Below are positions 13,514 through 36,088 of a stretch of 40,602 bases of DNA, one piece after another. Numbering within the stretch: the first letter of the stretch is position 1; the number at the start of each line of letters is the position of its first letter. A program made the position numbers and the translations under genes. Origin of the DNA: an uncultured bacterium (GTDB lineage: Bacteria > Verrucomicrobiota > Kiritimatiellia > RFP12 > UBA1067). The stretch is taken from positions 1 through 40,602 of the forward strand of contig CACWJS010000015.1 of the NCBI GenBank assembly GCA_902761275.1, given 5' to 3'. Under the pieces are notes generated by a model. That model searched no databases and had not been told where the DNA came from. It saw only the letters and a program-made list of their open reading frames with translations.

Positions 13514-16353
<2,840 letters not shown>

Positions 16354-16357
<4 letters not shown>

Positions 16358-17724
16358 GTCTTGATCTCCAACCTTATGGATGTTGTGCGCCGCTTGGACG
16401 CAAAAGAGACGGTGAAGCCGCTTCTGCGCGCGCGTTCCCGCATTCCGGAAAGCCCGAAGTGCCCCGCTTCCGGACCGAGCGCGTGCTGCGTGTCGAAGGG
16501 TGCTCCGTTGTTCACGATCCGCAGCTTGAACTTCTTCGGTCCTGCAGCGTCGCTTGCAATGAGAATGCGAGTCGCCTTCCCGTGCTTGATGGCGTTTGTG
16601 ACGGACTCCTGCACTACGTATAGTATGTCCGAGAAGAGCGCCTCTGGCAGGGTCTCCGGAAGTCCCTTAAGGATGGCCTCCACGCGGACGGCGGTAGTGG
16701 ATGCGAGTTTCTGCGCAAGCGACATCAGCACGTCCTTCGGGCGCTTCTGCGTTAGTTCGTCGATTCTCAGGTTCCAGATCGTCTCGCGAATTTCGCGCTT
16801 CGCGGTGACGAGGATGTCGCGTGCAAGTTCGATGGGCTTCAGCTCTTCCGGAGCCGGCGATCCGGCCTCGGGCAGCATGCTGTCGAGGTAGAGCCTTGCG
16901 CCCGCGAGGTGCTGCTCGATCGAGTCGTGCAGGTCCGCCGCCATCCTGCGGCGCTCGGCGATGACGGCCTGCAGCCGGCTTTTCGTCTGGTGCGCCCTGT
17001 AGAGCTTGAACGAAAGTGCGGCTACGACGACGAGAAGCAGCCACGGGGCGTATCTTGCGGCCTTTGACGCCTTGTAGGCGACAAACCTGCGCTTGAACGC
17101 CGCATCGGGGATTATGGTTATTGCGTTCTCGTCTGGCAGCCTGATGTCGATTTTCGGCACTTCGCCATCGGGCAGGTCGATGTCCAGGGTTATGAGGAAT
17201 CCCTCAAGCTCGACGTTCGGGCGCAGGGACAGCTTCTCCGAGAGTTCCTCGCTTGCGTATCCCTGAAGGCTTGCGGAAATCACTGCGCCTTCGCAGTCGA
17301 TGTCGAAGTCCGTGAACGCCCAGTCCCTCGGGATGACGTTAAGGACGCGCGCCTTCAGGCGTACGGGCATTCCGTAGAGGTCGGAAGTCTTCCCCTCGTC
17401 GAAGACGCGCGGAAGGTCTTTCGGTCCGATGGACTGCGTCTCCGGGACGACGCCGTTCTCGCCTTTCTTCTCGTATCTCGCCGCTTCGACTGTGATGCGT
17501 CCGTTGCGCCTCGCCGGCACGCCGCGCGCCTCCACTAAGTCGCCTGGCGAAAGCTCCGGCGCGCCCTGCTTTGTCTGCACGCGGACTACGCGGTCCTCGG
17601 TCTTCAGCAGGAAGAACTGCCACGCCTGCCAGTATAGGACGGTGCCGCGGACCGATTCGGTCTGCGGCTCGTTTGCGTACAGCGGCAATGCCGCGAGCGC
17701 AAGGATGGATATGAGGCGTTTCAT
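16354..17724 (-). CDS. Sensor histidine kinase with extracytoplasmic OB-fold-like domains
   Basis: The 456-aa protein has a signal peptide (1-17), an extracytoplasmic region of about 205 residues that looks like two OB-fold-type modules (VRGTVLYWQAWQFFLL...GDLVEARG and VRLKARVLNV...VELEGFLITL), one transmembrane helix (226-239), a HisKA_3 dimerisation domain with the phospho-histidine in AADLHDSIEQH (H266), and an ATPase domain with N-box VQESVTNAIKHG and G-box HFGLSGMRERARR. It pairs with NarL-type regulators. The sensed signal is not known; released sugars are plausible from the context. It follows the GH43 gene by 26 bp on the same strand, so it can be co-transcribed from that operator-controlled promoter, which would give positive feedback. 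Confidence 0.93.
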
Positions 17725-17750: not shown

Positions 17751-19190
17751 TCATTTTGCTGGAGTTCCGAAAGCCCACCAGTCGAGCTCCATGTTGCCGG
17801 CGAGGACGACGAAGACTGCGTGTTCGCCGGTTGCCGGCGCCTTGGTCTTGATCGACGTTGTCTTGAACGAATCGCCCGCGTCTACTGTGCCAGAGGCGAC
17901 GAGCGTTCCGTCCGGCTTGTCGAGCCTGACTTCGATCTTGCCCTTGCCGCGTGCGGAGAAGGTGAACTTCGCGGGCGCCTTCGGGCCGAAGTCCGCTCCG
18001 CGCACCGCCACCCACGCACCGTCCTCCTTCGGCTTCGCGGCGAGGTTGCCGAGCTGGGGAAGGCGGGTGAACGCCATGCCGGACGTCGCGGCGGCGGTCT
18101 CGCCCTGCACCCTGCGGCGGGGGTCGAGCTTCTCGACCTGCTCCACGCCCTTGCGCGTGTTCTTCACGGGCTTGAAGGTGACGGTCGCCTCGTCGACTTC
18201 GCAGATGTCGATGTTGATGTTTCGGAAACCGCCCGTCTGCGGCAGGAGGGACTTCTGGAGCTCCTGGTCGTGGTAGATGAGGTACCACTTCCCCTTGAAC
18301 TTGTGGAGATGCGTGTGGTTGTTGCAGAACATGTGTCCGAACATGCCCGGGTTCTGGTTGTATTCCCCGCGCATCTTCCAGCTCTTCTCGTCGAGCGGAG
18401 TCTTAGAGGTCTCATAGACCATGGAGCATCCGATCGGCTTCGGGCAGTCGCAGGGCCACGGCTCGTGGTCCGTCCAGTCGACGTTGTACGTGTAGACGCA
18501 CGTGTCGCCGATGAAGTTGAGCTCGTTCGCCTCGAAGTGGAACGGGGCGGGCGGAATCGTCGCCTCGCCGACGACGGAGATGAGGTCGGCGCCGAGCTTG
18601 ATGAGACGGGACTCAGCCCCACCGAAGGCGAGGTATCCCGTGCCGTCCGGACCGATCGCCGCGCCCGGATCGAACGGGACCTTGCACTTCTTCGTGAAGT
18701 CGGACTGCTGGTCGACGAGCGACTTCTGTAGCGGACTCGTCCAGGGCCCGAGCGGATGCGTCGCCGTGATGACGCCGGTGCCGCATCCGGAATTCGAGAA
18801 GTACATGTAGAAGTGCGTCTTCCCGTCCTTCTCCTTGCGCGAGATGACGGACGGCGCCCAGCTGTTGACGATCCACGGGGCGATTTCGCCTACGGGTATC
18901 TCGCCGTGGTAGGTCCAGTTCGCCATGTCGGCGGTTGACATCATGGAGAGGGTCTTGATGCATTCGTATGTGTTGTTCGTCTTCACGGGCGACTCGTCGT
19001 ACTGCTGGTGGTCGTTCGTTCCGTAGACGAAGAGGCGTCCGTTGTATTCGACTGCGGTCGGGTCCGCGCAGAAGTGGTGGTCGAGCAGCGGATTCCCGAA
19101 GAACTCGCCGTTCTCGAACTTTGGCGAAGGCGCCGCGAAGGCGCCGAAGGCGGCCGCAACCGCAACTGTGGAAAGTATTGTCTTTTTCAT
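17751..19190 (-). CDS. Secreted GH43-CBM6 arabinoxylan enzyme
   Basis: The 479-aa protein has a signal peptide (1-20), a GH43 propeller (about 25-355) and a C-terminal CBM6 (about 368-475, ending MELDWWAFG). Catalytic residues are D43 (CADPTAVEYNG), D174 (VPFDPGAAI) and a glutamate near 220 (HFEANELNFIG). The layout is that of arabinoxylan arabinofuranohydrolases, which remove arabinose from xylan chains. Residues 23-476 are closely similar to the middle of the 1400-aa protein at 22286, so the two are paralogues. It starts six bases after a TATAAT and shares a central operator with the divergent GH43 gene at 19279. Confidence 0.92.
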   Translation of the reverse strand: MKKTILSTVAVAAAFGAFAAPSPKFENGEFFGNPLLDHHFCADPTAVEYNGRLFVYGTNDHQQYDESPVKTNNTYECIKTLSMMSTADMANWTYHGEIPVGEIAPWIVNSWAPSVISRKEKDGKTHFYMYFSNSGCGTGVITATHPLGPWTSPLQKSLVDQQSDFTKKCKVPFDPGAAIGPDGTGYLAFGGAESRLIKLGADLISVVGEATIPPAPFHFEANELNFIGDTCVYTYNVDWTDHEPWPCDCPKPIGCSMVYETSKTPLDEKSWKMRGEYNQNPGMFGHMFCNNHTHLHKFKGKWYLIYHDQELQKSLLPQTGGFRNINIDICEVDEATVTFKPVKNTRKGVEQVEKLDPRRRVQGETAAATSGMAFTRLPQLGNLAAKPKEDGAWVAVRGADFGPKAPAKFTFSARGKGKIEVRLDKPDGTLVASGTVDAGDSFKTTSIKTKAPATGEHAVFVVLAGNMELDWWAFGTPAK

Positions 19191-19196
19191 GCCGCT

Positions 19197-19271
19197 ATTA
19201 TACCCTATTCCCCCGATGCCCGCAAATCATCCTGTGGGGTGATACCGAAGCAAGCGGAGGCATGGTAGAAT
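19197..19271. promoter_or_regulatory. Symmetrical divergent promoter with one shared operator
   Basis: One near-perfect palindrome, ATCATCC-TGTG-GGGTGAT (19226-19243), lies between two divergent GH43 genes. The minus-strand -10 TATAAT (19197-19202) is 23 bp away and the plus-strand TGG-TAGAAT (19266-19271) is 22 bp away. The operator centre is 44-45 bp from the ATG on each side. Both genes are predicted leaderless. Confidence 0.9.
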
Positions 19272-19278
19272 GTGTACC

Positions 19279-20841
19279 ATGAAAATGCATAAAAGGTCTG
19301 TAGTTTCCTCGATTGCGGCAGCGCTGTGCGTATGCGCCTCAGTCGCCGCCGGCGAGGTTAGGGAGCCGACGCTGTGGGCGGACGTGCCGGACGTCTCCAT
19401 GTGCCGCAAGGGCGGGAAGTACTTCATGGTCTCGACCACGATGCACTTCAACCCCGGCATCCCCGTCATGGTCTCGCAGGACCTCGTCAACTGGAAGATG
19501 GCGAGCTACTGCTACCAGACGGTCGAAAACCGTCCCTGCGACAGGCTGGAGAACGGCGAGAACGACTACGCCTTCGGGACTTTTGCCTCCTCGATAAGGT
19601 ACAACGAGTCGGACGGATACTTCTACGTCATCAGCGTCAACGTGAGGATCGACGACACGTATCTTTTCAGGACGAGGGATCCGGAGAAGGGCGGCTGGGA
19701 GTTCCACCGTCTGAAGAAGAACCAGTACGACGCCTCGATCTGGATCGAGAACGGGCGCTTCTGGGTCTTCGCCACGATGCCCGGCAAGCCGTACAAGGTG
19801 CGCCTTACGGAAATGAAGCCGGACTTCTCCGGTTTCGTCGACGACGGCATGATAACGCTCGACAACGTCACCGACTGCGTTGGCGGAGAGGGGCTCGGCG
19901 AAGGCGCGCAGGTGATGAAGCGCAACGGCTGGTACTACATCGTCAACATCTGCTGGCCCGCGGGGAACTGCCGCACCGTGGTAGTCCACCGCTCACGCTC
20001 AATGCAAGGACCATGGGAGGGACGAGTCGTGTTCCAGCACGCCGGAATCGCCCAGGGTTCGTTCATCGACACTCCCGACGGAAAGTGGTACGCGTATCTC
20101 TTTGGCGACAGAGGCGCCGTCGGACGCTGTCCGTACATCCTCCCTATGACATGGAACGACGACTGGCCGGTGATCTCGGAGGAAAGCCTCCCGCATCCGT
20201 CTGGAAGGCCCGGCATCGTGTCGGCGGACGATTTCGCGTCCGAGAGCCTGTCCCTCGTCTGGCAGTGGAACCACAATCCCGCTGACGGCCTCTGGTCTCT
20301 TGCGGACAGGCGCGGGTGGCTGCGTCTCAAGACCGACAGGGTCGACGGCGATCTGCTCTCAGCGCGCAACACGCTGACGCAGCGCTGCTGGGGTCCGACA
20401 TGCTCCGCTGCGGCGAAAATCGACATCAGCGGACTTGCCAACGGGGACAACGCCGGAATCGCGCTTTTCCAGCGCGACTACGTTTCGCTTTCGGCGACGA
20501 AGGAGAACGGTACGTCGTACCTCGTCCTTCGCCGGGCGGAGGACGGAAATGTGGGCGAGGTTGCGCGCGTCCAGGTCTCGCCCTGCGCGAGGACCGTATG
20601 GGTGCGTGCCTACGGCGACTTCTCGCGCGAACCCGAAAAGGACAAGCTGTGGAATTTCCCCGGGCGCGACGAAGGGTGGTTCGCGTATTCCACGGACGGC
20701 AAGTCGTGGACGCCCATCGGCGGCAAGTTCCACCTTGAATACACCGCGCCGCATTTCACCGGCTACCGCTTCGCGCTTTACATGTACTCGACGCTCAAGT
20801 CCGGCGGACACGCCGACTTCGACTGGTTCCGGATTAAATAA
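19279..20841 (+). CDS. Secreted GH43 enzyme with C-terminal beta-sandwich
   Basis: The 520-aa protein has a signal peptide (1-24), a GH43 propeller (about 27-320) and a C-terminal beta-sandwich of about 190 residues like those in GH43 xylosidases and arabinofuranosidases. Motifs include LWADVPDVSMCRKGGKYFMV with the base aspartate, MVSQDLVNWKM, QYDASIWIENGRFWV and EGLGEGAQVMKRNGWYYI with the likely acid glutamate. It probably releases xylose or arabinose from oligosaccharides. Start ATG 19279 is preferred over 19270, since the latter overlaps the -10. A DUF1593 gene follows after 15 bp in the same operon. Confidence 0.92.
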   Translation: MKMHKRSVVSSIAAALCVCASVAAGEVREPTLWADVPDVSMCRKGGKYFMVSTTMHFNPGIPVMVSQDLVNWKMASYCYQTVENRPCDRLENGENDYAFGTFASSIRYNESDGYFYVISVNVRIDDTYLFRTRDPEKGGWEFHRLKKNQYDASIWIENGRFWVFATMPGKPYKVRLTEMKPDFSGFVDDGMITLDNVTDCVGGEGLGEGAQVMKRNGWYYIVNICWPAGNCRTVVVHRSRSMQGPWEGRVVFQHAGIAQGSFIDTPDGKWYAYLFGDRGAVGRCPYILPMTWNDDWPVISEESLPHPSGRPGIVSADDFASESLSLVWQWNHNPADGLWSLADRRGWLRLKTDRVDGDLLSARNTLTQRCWGPTCSAAAKIDISGLANGDNAGIALFQRDYVSLSATKENGTSYLVLRRAEDGNVGEVARVQVSPCARTVWVRAYGDFSREPEKDKLWNFPGRDEGWFAYSTDGKSWTPIGGKFHLEYTAPHFTGYRFALYMYSTLKSGGHADFDWFRIK

Positions 20842-20856
20842 GGAGGACTTGTCCAG

Positions 20857-22236
20857 ATGAAGAATATTGCAGTTGCCGCTTTTGCGCTATTGACCGCATT
20901 GACCGCTGCTGCGGATGCGAAGCCGCGGCTGTTTGTCCTAACCGATCTTGCGAACGAGCCGGACGACGAGGAGTCGCTTGTCAGGCTACTCGCGTACGCG
21001 AACGAGTTCGACATCGAAGGAATCGCCGCGACCACGTCGTGCCACCTCAGGCAAAATCCGCGCGAGGACATTCTCCGTCACACAATCACCGCGTATGGCG
21101 AAGCGTGGACAAATCTGAGCGTTCATGCGCATGGGTATCCGACTTTGGAGAGGCTATCCGCAGTTGCGGCTTCCGGTCAGCCGAGGTTCGGCGTCGAAGG
21201 CGTGGGCGAACCGTCTCCCGGTTCGCGGCTTCTTGCGAAGTCGATAAAAAGCGACGATCCGCGTCCGCTGTGGGTGTCTATATGGGGCGGGGCCAACACG
21301 CTTTTGCAGGCGCTCAGGGAATGCCGCGCGGAGATGAAGGACGACGAGCTTGCCGCCGCGCTTGCGAAGCTTCGCGTCTATTCTATATCCGACCAGGACG
21401 ACGCGGGGCCTGCCGCGCGGCGCGAATTCCCGTCCGTGACGTGGATCGTCGATCCGAGCTATCCGTTCGACTACCGCGACTATTGGAAGTCGACATGGAA
21501 CGGCATGGCGGGCGATGTGCGCGGCGAGGGGCGAAAGTTGAATCTGCCATTCGTCGAGCTTGCGGACAACGAGTGGCTGAAAACGAACGTCATGGAGAAA
21601 GGCCCGCTCGGCAAATGCTACCCGCCGCACATCTACAGCATGGAAGGCGACACGCCGTCGTTCCTCGGGCTTATCGCGAACGGGCTGGGGTGGGCGGAAT
21701 CGCCCGCCTACGGCGGATGGGGCGGGCGCTATGAATGGCGGACGCCAACGGGCGAGTCGCATCCTGTATGGACGTCTCCCGAAAAGCCGGACGAGCTGAA
21801 GGGATTGCGTTCGCCCGGACATTCGGTGATGCGCTGGCGCGAGGGCTACCAGCTCGACTTCGCTGGGCGGATGATGTGGGCCGTCACGCCGAAATACGAA
21901 GACGCCAACCACAATCCAGTCGCCGTGCTGAACGGCGACAGGACGAAGGGCGTGGTCAGGATAGCCGCGAAGCGCGGAGACAAGGTCGCGCTTTCTGCGG
22001 AAGGGTCGAGCGATCCGGACGGCGACGCGATTTCATTCGAGTGGTCGATATACCGCGAAGCAGGGACGCTTAACGGCGGTGATCTTCGCGCAGACGGCGC
22101 GCGCGCCGTTATCGATCTTTCGGCGATTCCCGAAGGGGCGTCGGGATCGCTTCATGTCATTCTACGCGTGCGCGATTCCGGCACGCCGACTCTCTTCGCC
22201 TACCGCCGCGTGATAGTTGATCTCTCTGCTCCATAA
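20857..22236 (+). CDS. Secreted DUF1593 / Sde182-like nucleoside-hydrolase-fold protein
   Basis: The 459-aa protein has a signal peptide (1-20). The first 300 residues match the DUF1593 (Sde182-type) family, with a nucleoside-hydrolase-like aspartate cluster: RLFVLTDLANEPDDEESLVR near 24-43. The last 100 or so form a beta-sandwich (VALSAEGSSDPDGDAISFEW). The family occurs in polysaccharide-utilisation loci and was named for a cellulose-binding protein; the substrate is not established. AAGGAGG gives a strong ribosome site 15 bp after the GH43 stop, so it is the second gene of that operon. Its stop codon overlaps the operator of the next gene. Confidence 0.85.
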   Translation: MKNIAVAAFALLTALTAAADAKPRLFVLTDLANEPDDEESLVRLLAYANEFDIEGIAATTSCHLRQNPREDILRHTITAYGEAWTNLSVHAHGYPTLERLSAVAASGQPRFGVEGVGEPSPGSRLLAKSIKSDDPRPLWVSIWGGANTLLQALRECRAEMKDDELAAALAKLRVYSISDQDDAGPAARREFPSVTWIVDPSYPFDYRDYWKSTWNGMAGDVRGEGRKLNLPFVELADNEWLKTNVMEKGPLGKCYPPHIYSMEGDTPSFLGLIANGLGWAESPAYGGWGGRYEWRTPTGESHPVWTSPEKPDELKGLRSPGHSVMRWREGYQLDFAGRMMWAVTPKYEDANHNPVAVLNGDRTKGVVRIAAKRGDKVALSAEGSSDPDGDAISFEWSIYREAGTLNGGDLRADGARAVIDLSAIPEGASGSLHVILRVRDSGTPTLFAYRRVIVDLSAP

Positions 22237-22278
22237 CCCAGTAGGATGATGTTCTTGCCGCGCGATATTTTGTATAAT
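22233..22278 (+). promoter_or_regulatory. Regulon operator and -10 of the 1400-aa enzyme gene
   Basis: ATAACCC-AGTA-GGATGAT (22233-22250), 22 bp, then TATAAT (22273-22278). The ATG is seven bases on. There is no TGN extension here. Confidence 0.8.
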
Positions 22279-22285
22279 CTGCGGC

Positions 22286-25200
22286 ATGAAAACCACAAGA
22301 GGAATCGTGCTGGCATGTGCGGCAACCGTGTTCGCCACGGTCTCGCTTCGTGGTAATCCCGTATGGACAGGTGCATCAAGTTCCGATTGGTGGAACGCCG
22401 ACAACTGGACGCGGTGGCCTGAGGGATATGATGCAGGCAACGTGCCGTACGCCATCCCCGAGCCCGTCTTCTCGGATGATGCCGGCGGCTCTTCTACGGT
22501 GGACCTTAACGGACGGCGCGCCGAGGCGTCTGGCGCGGTGTGGGTGAGGCGATGCGACCGCGAGATGATTCTGTGGAACGGCGCGGTCGCGATGGATTCG
22601 GATTTGAACCTCCGCAGCACGGAGGGCGAAGGCGCGGTGACGAAGGGACCCGCCCTGCGGCTGATGAAGCTGGACATATCGGTCAACGGCAGCGTGAACA
22701 TCGGCGGCGACTGGAGGCATGACGGAATCGGAACGCTCTTCGTCGAGGACGGAACGGTTCTCAACGCAAGGGATCTGCGAATGGCGATCGGATCGGGCGA
22801 GCGTTCGTACTATGTCCAGAATGGAGGTGACGCGCGCTTCCACTGGTTTTGCTGCGCATCGCGGACCCAGGGTGGAGAGGGTAGTATTGAACTCAACGGC
22901 GGCGTGCTGAAGGTCCCTGGATTCGAGATTTCGGGTAGCGGGAGCGATCCGTATTCCGTCGCGACGACCCTGCACCTGAACGGCGGCGTGCTAATGCCGC
23001 ATCCGAACAACTACGGATGGGTGTCCGGCGAGATCGTGCCGCCGTGGCTTCCGACGGTGATCGGTAGGGCCGGAGCGAAGATAGACACGGCCTGGCGTGA
23101 CGTCCGCATCGCCTCGAATTCGCTGACGGCCGACGTGAACGACGGCGGATTGACGAAACTCGGCGGCGGAACGCTCGCGGTCGTGCGCGGCGTCGTCTGG
23201 AGGGGCCCGACGAAGGTAATGTCGGGTACGCTCGATCTGTGCGGACACTCCGACTGGCTGCCATGGGGATCTAAGCTCGTGCTCGGGGGTGGCAAGGTCG
23301 CAAATCTCGGGCCAAACGCGCGCTTCTCCGACGTCACGGTCGAAGACGGGGAGTACGAATCGTCGGAGGTCTTCTGTGCCGACGGCGGCACGGTGCATCT
23401 TAAGGGCGGGGTCCTGACAGTCCCGAAGGACGCCCCCTATCATGTGTCCGTCTCCGGCGGTTCGCTTGTCGTTTCTGGCTTCGCACCCGGCGAGCAGGTT
23501 TCGCTGCCAGCCTGCGTGGAGTTTCCGCAGGAAGCCTCCGGCCTAAGGTTTGACGTCTACTTCGCGGAACGGTCGGACGTGATGAGCGTCTTCGTCGACG
23601 GCGAAGGTAGCGTCTCCGGCACCACGCAGGGAGCGACTTCGCCGAAATACGTTAACGGCGAGTTCTACGGGAACCCGATCCTCGACCATCGCTTCACTGC
23701 GGATCCGACGTCGGTCGAGCACAACGGACGTCTCTACGTCTACGCCACGAACGACCACCAGCAGTTCGAGGAGTCTGCCGCTGGGACGGGTAACTCGTAC
23801 GAAAAGATAAAGACGATCACGATGATGTCGACGTCCGACATGGTCAACTGGACGTACCATGGCGAGATTGACGTTGCGGCTATCGCGCCCTGGATCATCG
23901 CAAGCTGGGCGCCGTCGGTCGTCTCGCGTGTCGAGGCTGACGGACAGACGCATTTCTACATGTACTTCTCGAATTCAGGCGCGGGCACGGGCGTGCTGAC
24001 TGCAACAAGCCCAGTCGGTCCTTGGACAAGTCCGCTGCCGGGTCCGCTTGTGGACCAGTCGTCGTGGTTCACGCGCGGATGCAAGGTGCCGTTCGACCCG
24101 GGCGCGGCGATTGCCCCTGACGGCACTGGCTACCTCACCTTCGGCGGCGGCGATGCGCGGATCGTGAGGCTCGGCGCTGACCTCGTTTCCGTCTCGGGCG
24201 AGGCGTCCGTGCTGCCTGCGCAGTTCCACTTCGAGGCGAACGAGCTCAATTTCATCGGCAACATGTGCGTGTACACGTACAACGTCGACTGGACGGGTCA
24301 CGACGGTTGGGATGCGCAGTGCGCGGCGCCATCCTCCTGCTCCATGGTGTATATGACGTCGGGTGATCCGATGAACGAGTCGAGCTGGACGGTGCGAGGG
24401 GAATACAACGCGAATCCAATGAACTTCGGCTGCATGCCGTGCAACAACCACACGCATCTGCAGAAGTTCAAGGGAAGATGGTATCTCATATACCACAACC
24501 AGGAGCTGCAGAAGGACCTCGTCCATGCCATGCGAGGAATGCGCAACGTCAACATCGATCTCTGCGAGGTTGACGAAGACACGGTTACGATCAGCCCCGT
24601 CGAAAACACGCGAAGGGGCGTCGAGCAGGTGGAGAGCCTCAACCCGTACGGCAGGCTGCAGGCCGAGACCGCGGCCGCAACGTCGGGCGTGTGCTTCGTC
24701 CCGCTTGCGGCGCCAGGGGACATGGCGGCGAGGGCGAAGACCGGACGCGGGTGGATCGCACTGCGTGGCGCCGACTTCGGTCCGACTTCCCCGGAGCTGC
24801 TGACATTCCGCGCAAGGGGAGGTGGAAGCATTGAGGTCCACCTCGACGCGCCGGATGGTCCGCTCGTGACCGAGTGCTATGTCAGCGCCGGATCCGAGTT
24901 TGAGGCGGCGACGAGTTCGAACTGGGCCTGGGCCACAGGGGTCCACGACATCTTTGTGGTCCTTGACGGTTCGGTCGAGCTGGACTGGTGGACGTTCGGC
25001 GGATTCTCGCGCAGCGCCGCGGAGTTCGTGAAGGACATATCGCTTGGAATCAACATCGGGAACACGCTGGACTGTCCCACCGCGAACGAGCTTGACTGGG
25101 GGTGCCAGCGGGTCACGAAGAGTCTGTTCAGGCTCTACAGGGAGAAGGGGGTAAACGCCGTGCGCGTGCCTGTCACGTGGAAGAACCAGTTCAGCCGCGA

Positions 25201-26488
25201 TGATCCTGAGCACAGGATCAGCAAGGCGTTCCTCGACCGCGTGCAGGATGTCGTCGACATGTGCCTTGCCGAGGGGATGATCGCGATACTCAACACCCAT
25301 CACGATTCCGGCGGAGCGGGCTGGCCTGATGAATGGCTTGCGGTCGACGGAGCAAACGAGGATGCCGCGAACGCCGTCCTTGCCGACGTATGGCGACAGA
25401 TAGCGACGCGCTTCAGGGACTACGGCGAGCGGCTTGTCTTCGAGGGCTTCAACGAAGTCAGGAAGGCGACCGCGTATTCGGGCTACGACGGCCAGCAGTC
25501 CGGCATGGACGACTGGAGCGGAAAGCCCCTCTACTGCGAAGCGGTGAACAGGTACGCGAAGACCTTCTACGACACTGTCCGCGCGACGGGCGGAAACAAC
25601 GCAAGCAGATATCTGCTCATCGCGACGTATGCGGCGACCGACTACGAGCCGTCCTGCCTTGCGTGGCGCCATCCGTCGCCAGGGGACGACCATGTGATGG
25701 TCTCAATCCACGCCTATGAGCCGGGCTCGTTCTGCCTGAGGGGAAATGACCCGGAGTACAGAGAGCAGGATTTCGCCGATTGCTTCGAACGCGTTTTCGG
25801 GATGCTCAAGCGCGTCTTCTCAGACAAGGGCGTCCCGGTTATTATAGGCGAGGTCAACGCGGACATGCGATTCTACGACGATGCGAAAACCATTCCGAAC
25901 GACGCGGACCGCGTGAACTGGGCCAGGCACTATGCCCGCGAAGCGGCAAGATACGGCTTCCCGTGCTTTCTCTGGGACAACGGATACGACAGGGGCATGG
26001 GGCTCGTAAACCGCAGGGACGTCGAGTGGAGCCACCCCGAGATCGTCGATGCGTTCAACGAGGGCCGCAGCGTAGGGAAGGGGCTCCCAATCCCCACGGC
26101 TCAGTGTGTCACGATGACGACGGCGGCGCCCGTTCCGTATCAATGGCTTGAGCCGTATGTCCTCAAATACGGCGGCGGAGACTACGAGACTGCGGGCAAC
26201 GCCAGCGGAGCGAACGGGGGCGCGCTCTGGGAGTCGTATGTAGCGGGGCTTGATCCCGACGACCCAGACAGCCGACTTCTGGCGATGATCGAGATGAAGG
26301 CCGACGGCTCGCCGGAGGTGTCCTGGGATCCCGATCTCAGGAACGCCGACCCGCCACGCAAGTACACGGTCCTGGGCAAGCAGTCCCTTGACGACGCGTC
26401 GTGGACCGTTGTGACGGAGGAGAACCTTGACCAGATGAAGTTCTTCAAGGTCGTCGCGGAAATCGATAGCTCCCGGCTATCATCCTGA
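22286..26488 (+). CDS. Secreted PATR-GH43-CBM6-GH5 multifunctional xylan enzyme
   Basis: This 1400-aa protein is modular. A signal peptide (1-24) precedes an N-terminal beta-rich region (25-450) with an autotransporter-associated strand repeat (GLTKLGGGTLAVV...VMSGTLDL, about 288-320). Next come a GH43 domain (452-785), a CBM6 (789-906) and a GH5 domain (908-1263) with acid/base E1057 (FEGFNEVRK) and nucleophile E1189 (IIGEVNAD). A C-terminal tail (1264-1400) has PYQWLEPYVLKYGGGDYETA and WESYVAGLDPDDPDS. The GH43-CBM6 part is a paralogue of the gene at 17751-19190, and GH5 of the gene at 29599-30762. Arabinose removal and backbone cleavage on one chain is the likely benefit. The tail may serve secretion or surface attachment. 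No barrel domain is present. Confidence 0.92.
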   Translation: MKTTRGIVLACAATVFATVSLRGNPVWTGASSSDWWNADNWTRWPEGYDAGNVPYAIPEPVFSDDAGGSSTVDLNGRRAEASGAVWVRRCDREMILWNGAVAMDSDLNLRSTEGEGAVTKGPALRLMKLDISVNGSVNIGGDWRHDGIGTLFVEDGTVLNARDLRMAIGSGERSYYVQNGGDARFHWFCCASRTQGGEGSIELNGGVLKVPGFEISGSGSDPYSVATTLHLNGGVLMPHPNNYGWVSGEIVPPWLPTVIGRAGAKIDTAWRDVRIASNSLTADVNDGGLTKLGGGTLAVVRGVVWRGPTKVMSGTLDLCGHSDWLPWGSKLVLGGGKVANLGPNARFSDVTVEDGEYESSEVFCADGGTVHLKGGVLTVPKDAPYHVSVSGGSLVVSGFAPGEQVSLPACVEFPQEASGLRFDVYFAERSDVMSVFVDGEGSVSGTTQGATSPKYVNGEFYGNPILDHRFTADPTSVEHNGRLYVYATNDHQQFEESAAGTGNSYEKIKTITMMSTSDMVNWTYHGEIDVAAIAPWIIASWAPSVVSRVEADGQTHFYMYFSNSGAGTGVLTATSPVGPWTSPLPGPLVDQSSWFTRGCKVPFDPGAAIAPDGTGYLTFGGGDARIVRLGADLVSVSGEASVLPAQFHFEANELNFIGNMCVYTYNVDWTGHDGWDAQCAAPSSCSMVYMTSGDPMNESSWTVRGEYNANPMNFGCMPCNNHTHLQKFKGRWYLIYHNQELQKDLVHAMRGMRNVNIDLCEVDEDTVTISPVENTRRGVEQVESLNPYGRLQAETAAATSGVCFVPLAAPGDMAARAKTGRGWIALRGADFGPTSPELLTFRARGGGSIEVHLDAPDGPLVTECYVSAGSEFEAATSSNWAWATGVHDIFVVLDGSVELDWWTFGGFSRSAAEFVKDISLGINIGNTLDCPTANELDWGCQRVTKSLFRLYREKGVNAVRVPVTWKNQFSRDDPEHRISKAFLDRVQDVVDMCLAEGMIAILNTHHDSGGAGWPDEWLAVDGANEDAANAVLADVWRQIATRFRDYGERLVFEGFNEVRKATAYSGYDGQQSGMDDWSGKPLYCEAVNRYAKTFYDTVRATGGNNASRYLLIATYAATDYEPSCLAWRHPSPGDDHVMVSIHAYEPGSFCLRGNDPEYREQDFADCFERVFGMLKRVFSDKGVPVIIGEVNADMRFYDDAKTIPNDADRVNWARHYAREAARYGFPCFLWDNGYDRGMGLVNRRDVEWSHPEIVDAFNEGRSVGKGLPIPTAQCVTMTTAAPVPYQWLEPYVLKYGGGDYETAGNASGANGGALWESYVAGLDPDDPDSRLLAMIEMKADGSPEVSWDPDLRNADPPRKYTVLGKQSLDDASWTVVTEENLDQMKFFKVVAEIDSSRLSS

Positions 26489-26525
26489 CGGGTGATGCCG
26501 CGTGACGGGGCGCAAATGATACAAT
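26479..26525 (+). promoter_or_regulatory. Regulon operator and -10 of the 972-aa PATR protein
   Basis: ATCATCC-TGAC-GGGTGAT (26479-26496), one of the best copies, overlaps the preceding stop codon. TGA-TACAAT (26520-26525) follows after 23 bp. A leader of about 30 nt with AAAGGAA precedes the ATG, so this one is leadered. Confidence 0.88.
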
Positions 26526-26561: not shown

Positions 26562-29480
26562 ATGAATAAAATAGTGGCTGCAGTCGGAATGGCGACACTG
26601 TCTCTCGGAGTGCTTGCGGAAGACAACGTTGCCAAGTACATGTGGGACGGCAACGCCGGCAATCTGAACCTTGCCGATTCCGGAAACTGGTACCTTGACG
26701 GTACGCAGGACGGGGAAAAGCAGCGGGGACTGCCGAACTTGTCCGAAGATTCGGATTTCAAGAACCGTACGGACCGCGCAGTGCTGAAGGATCTGTCTCG
26801 TTTCGAGACGCGTAAGCTAGAGCTGGCGCAGTGGGGCGGCATTGCGCAGATCGACGTGACGAACGCCACGATGAAGGTCGTGAACAATCTGATGATCGGC
26901 TGCGGCGGCGGCAGCGCCGCCGTGAACATCTACGACGACGCGACAGTCGACGCGGGTTTCGTCGAGGTGGGCTTCTGGAACTCGCATCAAGACTGTTCGC
27001 TGAACGTGTACGGCGGCAGTCTCATCGCAAGCTCGAATGACTGGGCAGGCTCGATCATGATCGGCAAGCAGTCCGAAAATGAGAATTATCCTGTCAAGGG
27101 CGAGATGAACGTCTACGGCGGCACTGTCTTTGCAACCAATAGCATCAAGATAGGCTACGGCTACACGCTGAATCCATGCAGGGAGACGGCGAGTGTCCTC
27201 AACATCGAAGGCGGACGGACGACAGGCGTCTTGATGGAGCTCGGAGGCTTCCAGCCGACGGCGTCGGGATATGTCTCGGTCTCCTGCGGAGAGCTTGCTC
27301 TCTCGGGCGACGTGAACATCGCGTGCCAAGATAATACATGGTGCGAAGTGGATGTCTCGGGCGGTTTGCTCTCCGTGGGCGGGACGCTTCGCGTCGGCAA
27401 TGACGCAGAGGCGCTTCATGCCGCGATGACGGTCTCGGGCGGCGTAGTGGATGTCGGCACGCTTTCCATCGCGAGGCAGTGCGACGGCACAGTTAATCTT
27501 ACCGGAGGCTCCGTATCTGCCACGAAGATCGAGCAGAGCGAAAATGCACCGGAGAGTGCCGTCTCGCGAATATATGCAAACGGCGGAGAGATTGTGGCAA
27601 AGAGTGACAACGACAGCTTCATGACGCGTCTTGACGAAGTCTGTCTCGGCGCGTCCGGACTTGTAATCGACGACGGAGGATACACGGTCAAGGCCACCGA
27701 CACCTGCGCCTTCACCGGCATCGGCGGAATCACGAAGGAGGGAACCGGCACCCTCATGCTGGATGCTGCGTACAACGCACACGGCGTCATCAACGTCCTG
27801 TCGGGAACGCTCCGCCTGCCGGCGAATGCGACTGTTTACTGTGAAGGGGTCACTGTTGCGGAAAATGCGACTCTGAACACCAATAACGCGACAGTGGTAA
27901 CAGTTACGAAAAAGGTCGTTTCGTCCGTCTGGACAGGAGCTGCGGGCGACGGTGATGTCTCTAACCCCGCGAACTGGCGTTCGGCTGTTGCCTTCTTCGA
28001 CGAAGACGGAAACGAGATCGCCGAGATAGCGGAGACCTATGACGGTGTTGCCCCTGCAGAGGACACGCCGGTCAGGGTTCCCGCTGGATTGGATCTTGGC
28101 GGTCTCGTCACGGGAGAAGTGTCGTATGTCGTCGATTCGGATATCTCCCTCGTCGCGGGATTTGACGCCACCTACGAGAACTACGCCGCAGGCCGCCTTG
28201 TCGCGACGGAGAACTTGAAGATACTGAACAACCTGAATGGACTCCTGAAGTCTGCCGTCGCATGGTACGATCCGAGCGATGTCGCGACACTCACGGTCGG
28301 TGATGACGGATTCGTGAAGACTGTTGCGAACAAGGGCTACCTCGGCTCGAAGATGAACGCCCAGGCCCGCGAGCAGAACGGCTCCGCTGTCATTGCGGCG
28401 GACGAGTTCAAGCAGAACGGACTCAACATCCTCGTCTTCACGAACAATGTCGGCTACACGTCCGCGGAGAAGCTTGGCACCATAACGAACGATCAGCCGC
28501 GCGCGCTCTTCGTCGTTTCCGCGCGCCAGGTAATCGGCGACTTCGCAATAGACTACGAATCATTCCCAGAAGGTGAAAAGAACATGAAGGTCGAGGTCAT
28601 GGGAATCGAAATCGCTGACACGAGCCATAATACAGACCAGAACCAGCTGGGCGTTTGCGGAATCGACCAGGTCGGCTGGGGCAACAGGATGAAGATACAT
28701 GTCCCGAAGGATGGAAGCGACGAGCAGCAGCAAGCTGAAGCGAGCTTTGGCTCCGCGCCATACGGACGAGCTGTTGTCCTTGCGATGAACGCGAAGGCGA
28801 CTTCCGTTTCCAGTGCGCAGAGATATTGGTCCGACGACGGGCAGAGCTTTGTTCGTGATACTAACTCTGCCGAATACAAGAAGCTCTTCGGCGGCGAGAA
28901 CATGAGCGTCGACTACGGATGGCGTGCGGAGTGGAGCTGCAGGTCCAGAGGTCGTCTCGGCGAAGCGCTTGCGTTCACCCGCGACCTTGGCAGCGATGCG
29001 GCGGTGGCGGTCGAGTCGTATCTTGCGGCGAAGTGGCTCGGCGATGAATCCGCGGCAGTTGCCATCGGCAAGACATCCCTGGACGGCCTTGTCCTTGAGA
29101 ACTCTGAGGTTGACTTTGACGGAGCTGCCGTCGAGATCGGCACGCTGTCCGGCTCCGGGTCAATCGTCAACGCGTCCTCTCTTGATGTAGATGCCGTCTC
29201 ATTCGATCTCGATCCGGACGGCGAGTTGCCGTGCATCACGTTGTCGGTGTCGCTCGACCTTTCCGAAGCGAGTATTGTTGTTTCGCCTGATGTTCTGTCC
29301 TTGGTGGGTGAAGCCAACGCTCCCGTTGCGCTGCTCGAGACGACAGGCAGCCTTGCCATCGGGCGGCGCCGCCGCTTCACGGCTGGAAACAGGCGGTATG
29401 TAGTTTTCGCCGAAACCAAGGATGGTGTATCCAGGCTCATGGCCGGTAGGGGCGCCGGATTTGCGGTCATCGTGAGATAG
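26562..29480 (+). CDS. Secreted beta-helix-like protein with PATR repeat and LamG-like domain
   Basis: The 972-aa protein has a signal peptide (1-19). Residues 20-430 are glycine-rich, repetitive beta-strand units (SAAVNIYDDATVDAGFVEVG; NVYGGSLIAS; NVYGGTVFATNSIKIG) ending in a PATR repeat (GITKEGTGTLML...VLSGTLRLP, near 389-423). About 565-830 resembles LamG-like domains of planctomycetes and relatives (SAVAWYDPSDVATLT; GRLGEALAFTRDLGSDAAVA; ESYLAAKWLGD). No catalytic motif and no outer-membrane barrel is visible. Its place in the xylan regulon suggests a surface binding or adhesion role on plant fibre, which is an inference. Confidence 0.75.
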   Translation: MNKIVAAVGMATLSLGVLAEDNVAKYMWDGNAGNLNLADSGNWYLDGTQDGEKQRGLPNLSEDSDFKNRTDRAVLKDLSRFETRKLELAQWGGIAQIDVTNATMKVVNNLMIGCGGGSAAVNIYDDATVDAGFVEVGFWNSHQDCSLNVYGGSLIASSNDWAGSIMIGKQSENENYPVKGEMNVYGGTVFATNSIKIGYGYTLNPCRETASVLNIEGGRTTGVLMELGGFQPTASGYVSVSCGELALSGDVNIACQDNTWCEVDVSGGLLSVGGTLRVGNDAEALHAAMTVSGGVVDVGTLSIARQCDGTVNLTGGSVSATKIEQSENAPESAVSRIYANGGEIVAKSDNDSFMTRLDEVCLGASGLVIDDGGYTVKATDTCAFTGIGGITKEGTGTLMLDAAYNAHGVINVLSGTLRLPANATVYCEGVTVAENATLNTNNATVVTVTKKVVSSVWTGAAGDGDVSNPANWRSAVAFFDEDGNEIAEIAETYDGVAPAEDTPVRVPAGLDLGGLVTGEVSYVVDSDISLVAGFDATYENYAAGRLVATENLKILNNLNGLLKSAVAWYDPSDVATLTVGDDGFVKTVANKGYLGSKMNAQAREQNGSAVIAADEFKQNGLNILVFTNNVGYTSAEKLGTITNDQPRALFVVSARQVIGDFAIDYESFPEGEKNMKVEVMGIEIADTSHNTDQNQLGVCGIDQVGWGNRMKIHVPKDGSDEQQQAEASFGSAPYGRAVVLAMNAKATSVSSAQRYWSDDGQSFVRDTNSAEYKKLFGGENMSVDYGWRAEWSCRSRGRLGEALAFTRDLGSDAAVAVESYLAAKWLGDESAAVAIGKTSLDGLVLENSEVDFDGAAVEIGTLSGSGSIVNASSLDVDAVSFDLDPDGELPCITLSVSLDLSEASIVVSPDVLSLVGEANAPVALLETTGSLAIGRRRRFTAGNRRYVVFAETKDGVSRLMAGRGAGFAVIVR

Positions 29481-29545: not shown

Positions 29546-29591
29546 ATCATCCTTATAGGTGATGGCGCAATTATGGAGACTATGACAGAAT
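29546..29591 (+). promoter_or_regulatory. Regulon operator and weak -10 of the GH5 gene
   Basis: ATCATCC-TTAT-AGGTGAT (29546-29563), 22 bp, then TGA-CAGAAT (29586-29591). The -10 is weak but has the TGN extension. The ATG at 29599 is seven bases on. Confidence 0.8.
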
Positions 29592-29598
29592 GTTGCAC

Positions 29599-30762
29599 AT
29601 GAAAAGCAAAATAGCCGTAGTACTTTCTTTCGGCGCGCTCGTCTGCGCGATGCGGCTTTTTGCGGCTGCGCCGTTCTCGCGCAGCGCGACGGAGTTCGTA
29701 AAGTCGATAGACCTCGGCATAAACATCGGCAACACGCTGGACTGCCCGAGCGGTAACGAGACGGAGTGGGGCAACCGCCCGGTGACCCGAAGCCTCCTGC
29801 GGCTGTACAAGTCGAAGGGCATAAACGCCGTCCGCCTGCCGGTGACGTGGCGGCGTCAGTTCGACAGGGACGATCCGAAGCACGAGATACGCCCGGTGTT
29901 CCTCGACCGCGTGCAGGAAGTAGTCGACATGTGCATCGCGGAAGGCTTCGTCACGATTCTCGACATCCACCACGACGGAGGAAGCGAAGGCTGGCCCGAG
30001 GAGTGGCTGACGATCGACGGCGTAAACGAAGACCGCGCCAACCAGGTGCTTGCGGACCTGTGGCGGCAGATCGCGACGCGGTTCAGGAACTACGGCGAGA
30101 AGCTCGTTTTCGAGGGGTTTAACGAAATCCGCAAGGCGAAGAGCCATCCAGGGCCGGACGGAGGCGAGGAGGGGAAGGACGACTGGGGCGGCAAGCCTCT
30201 CTACTGCAAGACGGTCAACCGCTATGCGAAGACGTTCTACGACACGGTGCGCGCGACGGGCGGCAACAACGCAAAGCGCTACCTCGTCATCCCGACATAC
30301 GCAGCGACGGGACACGAGCCGTCGTGCCTTGCGTGGGAGCATCCGAATCCGTCCGACAACCACGTGATGGTCGATCTTCATATATACGAACCCGGGTGGT
30401 TCTGCCTCTGGGGAGACAGCGCTGAATACAAGCGCGAGGAGTTCCAGAAACGACTGGCGGAAGTCTTCGAGCAGCACAAGCGCATATTCATCGACAAGGG
30501 CGTTCCGATTGTCTGCGGCGAGGTTAACGCCGAGCGGCGGTACCACGGCGGCGACAAGTCGAAGCCCAACGACGAAGACCGCGTGAAGTGGGCGAAGCAC
30601 TTTGGATACGTCGCGCGCCGCTTTGGGTGTCCGTGCTTCATCTGGGAGCCGGGCGGCTACGAGGGAATGGGCCTCATCGACCGCGCAAAGATAGAGTGGT
30701 CCCATCCAGAGATAATCGACGCCTTCAACGTCGGTCGCAAGGCCGCTGACAAAAAGCGGTAG
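29599..30762 (+). CDS. Secreted GH5 endo-glycanase
   Basis: The 387-aa protein has a signal peptide (1-23) and one GH5 TIM barrel. Motifs are LGINIGNTLDCP (39-50), NAVRLPVTW (76-84), ILDIHHDGG (120-128), the acid/base glutamate in FEGFNEIRK (E176), HIYEPGWFCLWG and the nucleophile in IVCGEVNAE (E308). GH5 enzymes of this type are endoglucanases, xylanases or xyloglucanases; the context favours a hemicellulose substrate. It is a close paralogue of the GH5 domain of the 1400-aa protein. ATG 29599 is preferred over 29590, which overlaps the -10. Confidence 0.92.
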   Translation: MKSKIAVVLSFGALVCAMRLFAAAPFSRSATEFVKSIDLGINIGNTLDCPSGNETEWGNRPVTRSLLRLYKSKGINAVRLPVTWRRQFDRDDPKHEIRPVFLDRVQEVVDMCIAEGFVTILDIHHDGGSEGWPEEWLTIDGVNEDRANQVLADLWRQIATRFRNYGEKLVFEGFNEIRKAKSHPGPDGGEEGKDDWGGKPLYCKTVNRYAKTFYDTVRATGGNNAKRYLVIPTYAATGHEPSCLAWEHPNPSDNHVMVDLHIYEPGWFCLWGDSAEYKREEFQKRLAEVFEQHKRIFIDKGVPIVCGEVNAERRYHGGDKSKPNDEDRVKWAKHFGYVARRFGCPCFIWEPGGYEGMGLIDRAKIEWSHPEIIDAFNVGRKAADKKR

Positions 30763-33072: not shown

Positions 33073-34560
33073 ATGATCAATCAGCCCAAGGTCAAACTCG
33101 CCGTCGTTGGCGTCAGCCGCGACTGCTTCCCCGCCACTCTCACCAAAAAGCGCGTCGCCGCAGTGATGGCAGAAGCCAAGAAGGCAAAGCTCGCGAACGT
33201 CGTCGACTGCCCGGTCACGATCGAGAACGAGATCGACGCGATGAAGGCGCTCGAGTGGGCGCGCAAGGAAGGCGTCAACGCGTGCTGCATGTTCCTCGGC
33301 AACTTCGGCCCCGAGGGCCCGACCACCCTGTTCGTCCAGAAGTTCGGCGGCCCCGCGATGGTTCTTGCCGCGAAGGAGGAGAACCGGGCGGTCCTCAAGT
33401 CAGACCGCGGCGACGCCTTGTGCGGCGTCCTCAATTTCAGCTACAACGTCGGTCTTAGGCGTCTCAAGGTCTACATCCCCGAGTACCCGGTCGTCGACGC
33501 GAAGGGCGCAGTCAGGGAACTCAAGGACTTCACCGACATCGCCCGCGTCGTTCTCGGCATCAAGAACCTCAAAGTGTTCGGCTTTGGCCCCCGTCCCTAC
33601 GACTTCCTCGCGTGCAACGCGCCGATCCAGCCGCTCTTCGACCTCGGCGTGAACGTGCAGGAGAACTCCGAGCTCGACCTCTTCGAGCACTTCCACAAGA
33701 TGGCGTCGCGCAAGGGCGAGATCGACGCCATCGCGAAGGACATGCAGAAGGAGCTCGGGAAGAACTGCCCGTATCCGGACCTCCTGCCGCAGCTCGCGCA
33801 GTTCGAGCTCGCGCTCATGGACTGGTACGAAAAACAGCGCGGCGCGTCCGAGTTCGCCGTCTTCGCGAACAAGTGCTGGCCGGCGTTCCAGACGAGCTTC
33901 CACTTTGTCCCGTGCTACGTCAACTCCCGCCTAACCGGGCGCGGCATTCCCGTCGCGTGCGAGGTCGACCTCTACGGCGCGGTCTCCGAGTATATGGTCG
34001 AGTGCGCGACTGAAAAGCCGGCGACGCTCCTCGACATCAACAACTCCGTCCCGGACGACATCCTCCCCAGGGGCATCAAGCTCGCGGGCGCGGAGAAGCG
34101 CGATCTCTACATGGGCTTCCACTGCGGCAACACCTGCATGAGCTGTCTCAAGAACCCCGCCATGAAGTACCAGCTCATCATGAACCGCGGGCTCGAGGGC
34201 GGCGGCAAGCCCGTCATCTCTCGCGGCACGATGGAAGGGCAGATAAAGGCCGGCGCGGCGACGATGTTCCGCCTCCAGTCGAACAGCGACTCGAAGCTCG
34301 TCTCCTACATCGCCGAGGGTTCGTTCCTCGACGTGAATCCCTGCTCCTTCGGCTCGCTAGGCGTCGCGGCGATCCCGGGCTTCGCGCGGTTCTACCGCCA
34401 CGTCCTCATCCAGAAGCGCTTCCCGCACCACGGCGCGTACGGCTTCGACCATGCGGGCAAGGCGCTCTTCGAGGCGCTGAAGCTCCTTGGCGTCGACGAC
34501 ATCAACACGCCGAAGCCCGCGGGCGAGCTCTATCCGGGCGAGAATCCCTTCGCGGTCTAA
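33073..34560 (+). CDS. L-fucose/L-arabinose isomerase family protein (probable arabinose isomerase)
   Basis: The 495-aa protein resembles the fucose-isomerase-fold group (COG2407-like), seen in FLGNFGPEGPTTLFVQKFGG, the substrate-domain stretch FGFGPRPYDFLACNAPIQPL, PVACEVDLYGAVSEYM with likely metal-binding residues, and MGFHCGNTCMSCL. Family members convert aldoses to ketoses with Mn2+. The next genes are a ribulokinase-like kinase and AraD, so the most economical assignment is L-arabinose to L-ribulose. It is not the classical AraA family and L-fucose or another aldose cannot be excluded. ATG 33073 is chosen because AAAAGGA precedes it; the longer frame from 32941 runs through the repeat. 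Confidence 0.8.
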   Translation: MINQPKVKLAVVGVSRDCFPATLTKKRVAAVMAEAKKAKLANVVDCPVTIENEIDAMKALEWARKEGVNACCMFLGNFGPEGPTTLFVQKFGGPAMVLAAKEENRAVLKSDRGDALCGVLNFSYNVGLRRLKVYIPEYPVVDAKGAVRELKDFTDIARVVLGIKNLKVFGFGPRPYDFLACNAPIQPLFDLGVNVQENSELDLFEHFHKMASRKGEIDAIAKDMQKELGKNCPYPDLLPQLAQFELALMDWYEKQRGASEFAVFANKCWPAFQTSFHFVPCYVNSRLTGRGIPVACEVDLYGAVSEYMVECATEKPATLLDINNSVPDDILPRGIKLAGAEKRDLYMGFHCGNTCMSCLKNPAMKYQLIMNRGLEGGGKPVISRGTMEGQIKAGAATMFRLQSNSDSKLVSYIAEGSFLDVNPCSFGSLGVAAIPGFARFYRHVLIQKRFPHHGAYGFDHAGKALFEALKLLGVDDINTPKPAGELYPGENPFAV

Positions 34561-34564
34561 GACC

Positions 34565-36088
34565 ATGAAGGACTTTATCTCCGCAGGCAAGGCCGTGATG
34601 GGCATCGAGTTCGGCTCGACGCGCATCAAGGCGGTGTTGATAGGCGACGACTTCAAGGTCATCGCGCAGGGCGCGCACGACTGGGAGAACAAGCTCGTCG
34701 ACGGCGTCTGGAGCTATTCGCTCGAAGACATCGAGTCGGGCGTTCGCGACGCGTACGCAAAGTGCGCGGCGGACGTTGAAGCGAAGTACGGCGCGAAGCT
34801 CGAGCGCCTTGCCGCGCTCGGCATCTCCGGCATGATGCATGGCTACCTTCCGTTCGACGATGGTGGGAATCTACTCGTGCCGTTCCGCACCTGGCGCAAC
34901 GTGATGACGGCCGAGGCCGCTGCGGAGCTTTCGAAGCTCTTTAGCTTCAACGTTCCGCAGCGCTGGTCTATTGCGCACTACTACCAGGCGATCCTTAAGA
35001 AGGAGCCGCACATAGGCGCGGTGCGCTGGCTTACGACGCTTGCTGGCTATGTCCACTACCGGCTCGCCGGCGAGAACGTCATGGGCGTCGGCGAGGCGAG
35101 CGGAATGTTCCCGATCGACCCTGCGATCGGCGACTACAATGAGCGGATGCTAGCGGCGTTTGACGCGAAGGTCGGCGGCTCGCTAAAGGAGAAGCTCCCT
35201 CGGGTGCTTAAGGCAGGCGAGAAGGCAGGCGTCCTTACCGAGCGCGGCGCGAAGTGGCTCGACCCTACGGGCACCCTCAAGCCGGGTGCCGTGATGGCGC
35301 CGCCCGAAGGCGACGCGGGAACGGGAATGGTGGCCACCAACGCCGTTGCGCAGAAGACTGGCAACGTGTCTGCCGGAACTTCCATCTTCGCAATGGTCGT
35401 TTTGGACAGCCCGATGAAAGGGTACTACCCCGAGATCGACGTCGTCACGACGCCTTCGGGCAGCGAAGTCGCGCTTGTGCATTGCAACAACTGCACGAAC
35501 GAGATAAACGCGTGGGCGCCGCTTCTCGGCGGAGACTACGAAAAGCTCTTCCTCGAGTCGCAGAAGGGCGACAAGGACTGCGGCGGTGTCGTGGTTGTGC
35601 CGTTCCTCTCTGGCGAACCGGTTGCTGGAGTCGAAGACGCCATGCTCAAGGTCGTTCGCAAGCCAGAGAGCCGCTTCACGCTCGCCAACTTCTTCCGTGC
35701 GCAGATCTACTCGGCGTTCGTCTCGCTTAAAATCGGCATGGATATCCTCGCGCGGGAGGGTGTGACGATCGACTCCCTCATGGGTCATGGCGGAATATTC
35801 AAGACGAAGGGCGTCGCCCAGCAGTATCTTGCCGATGCGCTCAAGACGCCAGTCGCCTGCATGTCCACTGCGACAGAAGGCGGACCGTGGGGGATGGCCA
35901 TCCTCGCTGCGTACGCCGCGAGGAGTTCAAAGTCTGAAGTTGAAAGTGGAAAGCGCGAGACGCTTGAAGACTTCCTGTCTCGTGAAGTTTTCAAAGACGC
36001 TGAGAGCGAAACTCTCGTTCCGACGGAGGAAGGCATGGCCGGCTTTGACCGCTATGTCTCGAACTTCAAGGAGGCCATAAATGCTTGA
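34565..36088 (+). CDS. araB: FGGY-family sugar kinase, probable L-ribulokinase
   Basis: The 507-aa FGGY kinase has the N-terminal phosphate motif VMGIEFGSTRIKAVL (11-25), GISGMMHGYLPF, VPFLSGEPVAG and the C-terminal GHGGIFKTKGVAQQYLADAL and STATEGGPWGMAILAAY. It should phosphorylate L-ribulose at O-5. The assignment rests on its place between isomerase and AraD; xylulokinase is the alternative. It starts 4 bp after the isomerase stop and overlaps AraD by 8 bp. Near the C-terminus a 28-bp heptamer run (35925-35952) adds SSKSEVESGK, a stretch not expected in the family. Its first 80 codons are duplicated in the chimera at 3794. Confidence 0.85.
   Translation: MKDFISAGKAVMGIEFGSTRIKAVLIGDDFKVIAQGAHDWENKLVDGVWSYSLEDIESGVRDAYAKCAADVEAKYGAKLERLAALGISGMMHGYLPFDDGGNLLVPFRTWRNVMTAEAAAELSKLFSFNVPQRWSIAHYYQAILKKEPHIGAVRWLTTLAGYVHYRLAGENVMGVGEASGMFPIDPAIGDYNERMLAAFDAKVGGSLKEKLPRVLKAGEKAGVLTERGAKWLDPTGTLKPGAVMAPPEGDAGTGMVATNAVAQKTGNVSAGTSIFAMVVLDSPMKGYYPEIDVVTTPSGSEVALVHCNNCTNEINAWAPLLGGDYEKLFLESQKGDKDCGGVVVVPFLSGEPVAGVEDAMLKVVRKPESRFTLANFFRAQIYSAFVSLKIGMDILAREGVTIDSLMGHGGIFKTKGVAQQYLADALKTPVACMSTATEGGPWGMAILAAYAARSSKSEVESGKRETLEDFLSREVFKDAESETLVPTEEGMAGFDRYVSNFKEAINA
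35925..35952 (+). repeat. Heptamer repeat inside the ribulokinase gene
   Basis: Four adjacent heptamers: GTTCAAA, GTCTGAA, GTTGAAA, GTGGAAA. It has the same total length (28 bp) as the run in GH97, and again the frame stays open. Confidence 0.75.

Follow-up and report, generated by a model that had tools for sequence, protein, structure and literature searches.

A GH43-CBM6-GH5 enzyme of uncultured Kiritimatiellia that probably arose by fusion of duplicated neighbouring genes

The window analysed here is the whole of contig CACWJS010000015.1 (40,602 nucleotides), which belongs to a 3.4 Mb metagenome genome (GCA_902761275.1) of an uncultured bacterium in the Kiritimatiellia lineage RFP12; UBA1067. 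On its forward strand, a single gene (22286..26488) encodes a predicted secreted protein of 1400 amino acids (aa) with two catalytic domains, of glycoside hydrolase families GH43 and GH5. We consider it likely that a contiguous set of genes was duplicated and fused in this lineage, that a C-terminal tail was added, and that the product now forms a palindrome-flanked cassette co-regulated with related stand-alone (solo) enzymes.

The protein starts with a signal peptide and a predicted right-handed beta-helix with PATR-like character (residues 1-448; 22286..23629), followed by a GH43-CBM6 module (residues 449-906; 23630..25003), a GH5 module (residues 907-1264; 25004..26077) and the tail (residues 1265-1400; 26078..26485). 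Pfam placed GH43 at residues 461-763 (E 2e-16, 60.6 bits; gathering cut-off 32.2), CBM6 at 792-905 (E 1.5e-9, 38.7 bits; cut-off 28.9) and GH5 at 933-1234 (E 1e-47, 163.2 bits; cut-off 23.5); there is essentially no linker at the CBM6/GH5 junction. Copies of the whole protein were found in four other species of the genus, with identities of 99, 99, 96 and 88%, and the ratio of nonsynonymous to synonymous substitutions (dN/dS) between the window and genome G083 was 0.13-0.20 for every part of the fusion. The fused gene is therefore maintained and is not a chimera of this assembly alone.

Both enzymatic modules have a paralogue within 8 kb, as the first-pass annotation of the window had stated. 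The solo GH43-CBM6 gene (17751..19190, reverse strand, 479 aa; identified by Pfam and by alignment to the fusion) is 66% identical to residues 452-905 of the fusion, and the solo GH5 gene (29590..30762, forward strand, 390 aa; ATG 29599 is the more likely start) is 65% identical to residues 907-1262. Both alignments are free of gaps, and each solo gene encodes its own signal peptide.

Module trees were built from 15 genus sequences plus 20 outgroups from Bacteroidota, Spirochaetota and Bacillota for GH43-CBM6, and from 16 genus sequences plus five outgroups belonging to further families of the same order for GH5. The two trees were congruent and resolved the same three groups. All sequences of the genus, a group of rumen Kiritimatiellae, formed one clade in each tree (100/100), and within it the fused modules of five species formed another (100/100). 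The solo sequences were joined by those of G130 (88/85 and 87/94), to which they are closer than to the fused modules; the third group (G111, G126 and G127) comprises GH5 and GH43-CBM6 genes that are adjacent and unfused. The approximately unbiased (AU) test was run on the concatenated modules. Since the concatenation, having its own outgroups for each module, gave no cleanly rooted tree, the single-module trees were used for rooting. The AU test rejected a grouping of fused and solo sequences without G130 (p 0.003). Together with the topology, this indicates that a joint duplication of both modules probably preceded the split between the solo lineage and G130.

Direct descent of the fusion from the two present solo genes is likewise rejected by this test at the present sampling. 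The first-pass annotation had described the enzyme as built from neighbours that also exist as separate genes; that does not hold for the solo genes of today, which are not its nearest sisters. A recent local fusion would be suggested by their proximity, the 65-66% identity and the common operator and promoter layout. In addition to the AU result, the fused clade and the solo clade each span several species, and we regard such a recent event as extremely improbable.

Gene order in related genomes provided examples of the unfused, fused and fusion-free states. In G111, a PATR-like gene, GH5, GH43-CBM6 and a Sde182-like gene are contiguous and separate. G126 and G127 carry GH5, GH43-CBM6 and Sde182 in that order, with GH5 and GH43-CBM6 adjacent but separate. 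In the window, G118 and G123, the solo GH43-CBM6 gene is divergent from a GH43-GH43_C2 gene, which is followed by Sde182, the fusion, a PATR-like gene of the 972-aa type and solo GH5. G083 keeps the order of the window from Sde182 to the PATR-like gene, with solo GH5 on a different contig, and G128 has the order fusion, solo GH5, PATR-like protein. In G073 and G081, Sde182 is followed directly by a PATR-like gene and then by solo GH5, and no fusion lies between them. The fusion-free junctions of these two genomes share the sequence GTGGAGGTTGACATGGCTCCGCTATCATCCTG and a palindrome, which overlaps the Sde182 stop codon; in the window, a palindrome copy overlaps the end of the fusion in the same way.

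A history that began with a fused GH43-CBM6-GH5 gene, from which the solo genes were derived by duplication and splitting, would agree with the coexistence of fused and solo copies, and the weak deep branches leave the trees by themselves without a forced direction. However, GH43 and GH5 occurred in one frame in no outgroup of either module. In other families of the order, the relatives of GH5 lie in frames of some 590-640 aa; two of these frames were scanned and had GH5 as their sole Pfam domain. The signal peptides of the solo genes, the three species whose deep-branching pairs are unfused and adjacent, and the fusion-free sites in two species also argue against splitting, which we judge very unlikely. 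On the question of whether fusion or splitting came first, raised by the first-pass annotation together with a domain phylogeny with outgroups, the evidence favours a fusion of separate genes; the modules lie within the genus clade and do not group with distant sequences, the outcome that the annotation had named as refuting its reading.

The whole fused gene might instead have been transferred from an unsampled relative into an operator-flanked site. The sharp borders of the cassette, the G073 and G081 sites without it and the unusual similarity of the fused GH5 part between species are compatible with such a transfer. Yet no fused copy was found outside the genus among 162 genomes of the order, 388 genomes of the phylum and one scan of an 84,980-species collection, and the nearest kin of all modules lie within this genus. 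We consider transfer unlikely. Searches of viral contigs returned no GH5 homologues.

Two further rearrangements were observed, each in a single metagenome assembly. G130 has a 919-aa frame in which GH5 is joined to GH43-GH43_C2, the latter 63% identical to the window gene 19270..20841, and its GH43-CBM6 is a gene of its own just upstream. On this evidence, the same GH5 would have been joined a second time, independently and with another neighbour. In G128, the fused GH43 matches the solo gene of the same genome at 93.8% DNA identity over codons ~181-300; further downstream the fused and solo copies are only ~63% identical, and there the G128 fusion shares 95.7% identity with the fused gene of the window. 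This pattern points to gene conversion, in which solo-type sequence would have replaced part of the fused GH43.

Several observations weigh against duplication followed by fusion as we propose it. The fused clade as sister of the G111 group was not rejected (AU p 0.30), and the deepest splits are weakly supported (65/30 in the GH5 tree), so that the exact parent pair is not fixed. Close genomes differ in whether they carry the fusion, which could reflect its repeated loss or an exchange among species. In the comparison of the window with G083, the synonymous divergence (dS) of the GH5 part is 0.05, as against 0.16-0.18 for the other parts. All the genomes are fragmented metagenome assemblies, and the G130 fusion and the G128 conversion, each seen in one genome, could therefore be assembly errors.

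The N-terminal region also appears to be a module of the neighbourhood. Among 61 genomes of the genus, its relatives at E<1e-10 occur only beside GH5, in G128 and G111 and as a fragment in G081. The match in G128, of 433 columns at 43%, stops at residue 444, immediately ahead of GH43. The first-pass annotation had named this part a PATR region. It does contain a PATR-like motif, GGLTKLGGGTLAVVRGVVWRGPTKVMSGTLDL, and one PATR-like repeat near residues 286-318, whereas the Pfam PATR profile (PF12951) gave no match in the fusion even at E 5, and E 0.05-0.15 in related proteins. The structural model is almost all beta (predicted local distance difference test, pLDDT, 78). VIA-align matched it to beta-helix proteins (best Z 13.6, 4.6 Å over 276 residues; Z 10-13 to many), and Foldseek returned nothing significant for this region. 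Module shuffling, as first proposed for the two enzymatic parts, is thus upheld and broadened: the modules come from the same neighbourhood, the N-terminal region is included, and relatives show fused, unfused, fusion-free and gene-converted states.

The 972-aa PATR-like protein encoded between the fusion and solo GH5 (26562..29480, forward strand; Pfam PATR weak, E 0.05) is 27% identical to the N-terminal region of the fusion over 121 aa. Its gene is 91% identical to that of G083 and shares only 62-63% identity with its counterparts in G118, G123 and G073, whereas most flanking genes exceed 90%; this difference suggests that the 972-aa gene underwent allele exchange.

The tail had been listed as an addition particular to the fused form. 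It is present there, but it is a common C-terminal domain of the lineage: the 136 residues recur in 42 of the 61 genomes, with up to 7 copies per genome (relatives L004-L007, L031-L036 and L150-L161), and, in each of the nine proteins checked, lie at the C-terminus or close to it. The model is a small domain of one helix plus four strands (pLDDT 84), which had no Pfam match and no match to PDB folds by Foldseek at E<=0.001. A fibronectin-like beta sandwich was considered; the best VIA-align match (Z 4.4, 2.9 Å over 63 residues) was too weak to name it. The features of an autotransporter were not found either: the C-terminus is modelled as this small domain, and Pfam matched no outer-membrane beta-barrel. 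The tail is possibly a lineage-specific sorting or attachment domain.

The statement that the fusion and both solo genes are under the same operator was borne out. A palindrome with the consensus ATCAYCC-N4-GGRTGAT lies upstream of the divergent solo GH43-CBM6 and GH43-GH43_C2 genes, which share one copy (19226..19243, 0 mismatches), and upstream of the fusion (22233..22250, ATAACCCAGTAGGATGAT, 1 mismatch, overlapping the stop codon of the Sde182-like gene), the 972-aa gene (26479..26496, overlapping the stop codon of the fusion), solo GH5 (29546..29563, 1 mismatch) and GH97. The Sde182-like gene (20857..22236, forward strand; Pfam and synteny) marks the left border of the fusion cassette and the palindrome at 26479..26496 its right border. 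With at most 1 mismatch, the palindrome occurs at five sites genome-wide, all inside the window, and the reversed control pattern at none; with at most 3 mismatches, 14 sites were seen in the window compared to 4 expected. The palindrome is 35 nt from the ATG of solo GH43, GH43_C2, the fusion and solo GH5, and a -10-like hexamer follows it by 22-23 nt in all four (in solo GH5 the hexamer is only CAGAAT). This near-fixed spacing predicts a short or absent leader with an activator site near -35, and suggests leaderless transcripts for several of the genes (22233-22286, 19190-19279 and 29546-29599).

The best candidate for the protein acting on the palindrome is a LuxR-type response regulator (15743-16357, reverse strand), which adjoins its partner histidine kinase (16354-17724, reverse strand; the pair spans 15743..17724). 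Wherever the contig extends that far, relatives with the palindrome carry this regulator and kinase at 83-100% identity, whereas G126, without a palindrome before its genes, has only a 51/42% regulator/kinase pair nearby. Conservation of the regulator with the palindrome and its divergence in G126 are the grounds for this choice. We also entertain, tentatively, that the locus is an active fusion site, at which the stop-overlapping palindromes would act as borders for insertion, loss, recombination and fusion of cassettes and the tail would be a lineage-specific signal for surface attachment.

Taken together, we propose that a contiguous set comprising a PATR-like beta-helix protein, GH5 and GH43-CBM6 was duplicated, that one copy would then have fused, and that the common tail of the lineage was joined to its end. 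Lying between two palindrome copies, the fused cassette would be induced together with the solo enzymes, with the nearby response regulator as the most likely activator. The GH43-CBM6 part may trim or cut arabinoxylan while CBM6 holds the substrate, the directly joined GH5 part may cut a beta-1,4-linked backbone, and the beta-helix and tail may serve in surface display or attachment of the protein.

Family membership and conserved catalytic residues make the combination of debranching and endo-acting activities, envisaged by the first-pass annotation, plausible. The catalytic Asp base, Asp modulator and Glu acid of the GH43 module all align with those of 3c7g, which we take to be Asp24, Asp163 and Glu225 of Bacillus subtilis XynD / BsAXH-m2,3. 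Both catalytic Glu of the GH5 module align with 4im4, and FEGFNE and IIGEVN match its motifs. In PDB matching by sequence, the GH5 matches were cellulases and xyloglucanases, one of them named GH5-4. The NCBIfam names endoglycoceramidase and BAD_1527-type arabinofuranosidase were set aside, their matches being far below the cut-offs. Relatives of the GH43-CBM6 module vary in their products: they may release arabinose or xylose, and two GH43_29-CBM6 enzymes release mainly xylose (PMC6556953), which calls for caution in describing the module here as purely debranching. A GH43-like-CBM6 enzyme has been characterised as an endo-xylanase and yields xylo-oligosaccharides (PMC11022575).

The neighbours of the locus include GH10, GH51, GH97, several GH43 (among them the beta-xylosidase-like GH43-GH43_C2 gene, 19270..20841, forward strand, assigned by Pfam, whose homologue forms the G130 fusion with GH5), together with a two-component system and genes for a sodium:solute symporter, a kinase, an aldolase and a fucose-isomerase-like protein. 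From this content, a role in arabinoxylan or pentose use is a reasonable inference. Upstream of GH10, 3728-4144 holds remnants of an FGGY kinase (70%, ~104 aa) and a class II aldolase (80%, ~41 aa), which resemble the intact genes at 34487-36776 and look like a decayed duplicate. The transketolase open reading frame at 9465-11006 (513 aa) has both N-terminal domains and no match to the C-terminal domain; it is possibly shortened or frameshifted. In the sugar transporter frame at 7253-8287, MFS_2 matches only from profile position 96, and the start may be lost or misread.

Fibre-degrading microbes commonly have multi-catalytic enzymes, whose parent genes can usually not be traced. Here, an unfused pair, a fused gene and fusion-free sites are found in related rumen species, together with an apparent second GH5 fusion and an apparent gene-converted copy. 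The genomes of the close relatives come from metagenomes, several from rumen, and are deposited under names that include Kiritimatiellae, Verrucomicrobia and Lentisphaerae. These states are matched natural controls that allow a direct test of joined versus single enzymes in arabinoxylan breakdown, and the tail and operator offer a way into protein display and regulation in a group with almost no cultured members. The locus is a clear though not revolutionary example of the evolution of a multi-part enzyme, with unusually good intermediate states.

Multi-catalytic carbohydrate-active enzymes themselves are already known; among the genomes searched, no other instance of the GH43-CBM6-GH5 architecture was found. 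In open-access text, a search for GH43-GH5 or GH5-GH43 proteins turned up only a mention of gene order and a hit on part of the word GH43-GH51. A GH43-GH51 hybrid of termite metagenome origin (PMC3662619) likewise joins two hydrolases in one chain for one complex polysaccharide, but with a different family pair, and the passage on it describes no unfused parents or intermediate stages. For the GH5 module, the best PDB matches are endoglucanases/xyloglucanases grouped with GH5 subfamily 4 (4im4, Endoglucanase E; 4w84, a xyloglucan-specific endoglucanase), with the acid/base and nucleophile Glu aligned; the likeness is by sequence only, a placement of the module itself in that subfamily is tentative, and neither enzyme is joined to GH43-CBM6. 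XynD / BsAXH-m2,3 (3c7e, 3c7g) has GH43 followed by CBM6 as well and is the best PDB match over nearly the whole module (E 6e-71, compared to 2.5e-59 for GH5 with 4im4), but it is a stand-alone two-domain enzyme without GH5. The xyl-doc GH43_29-CBM6-dockerin enzymes of R. cellulolyticum (PMC6556953) also place GH43-CBM6 in a hemicellulose cluster activated by a response regulator; they carry a cellulosomal dockerin where the present protein has GH5, a beta-helix and the tail.

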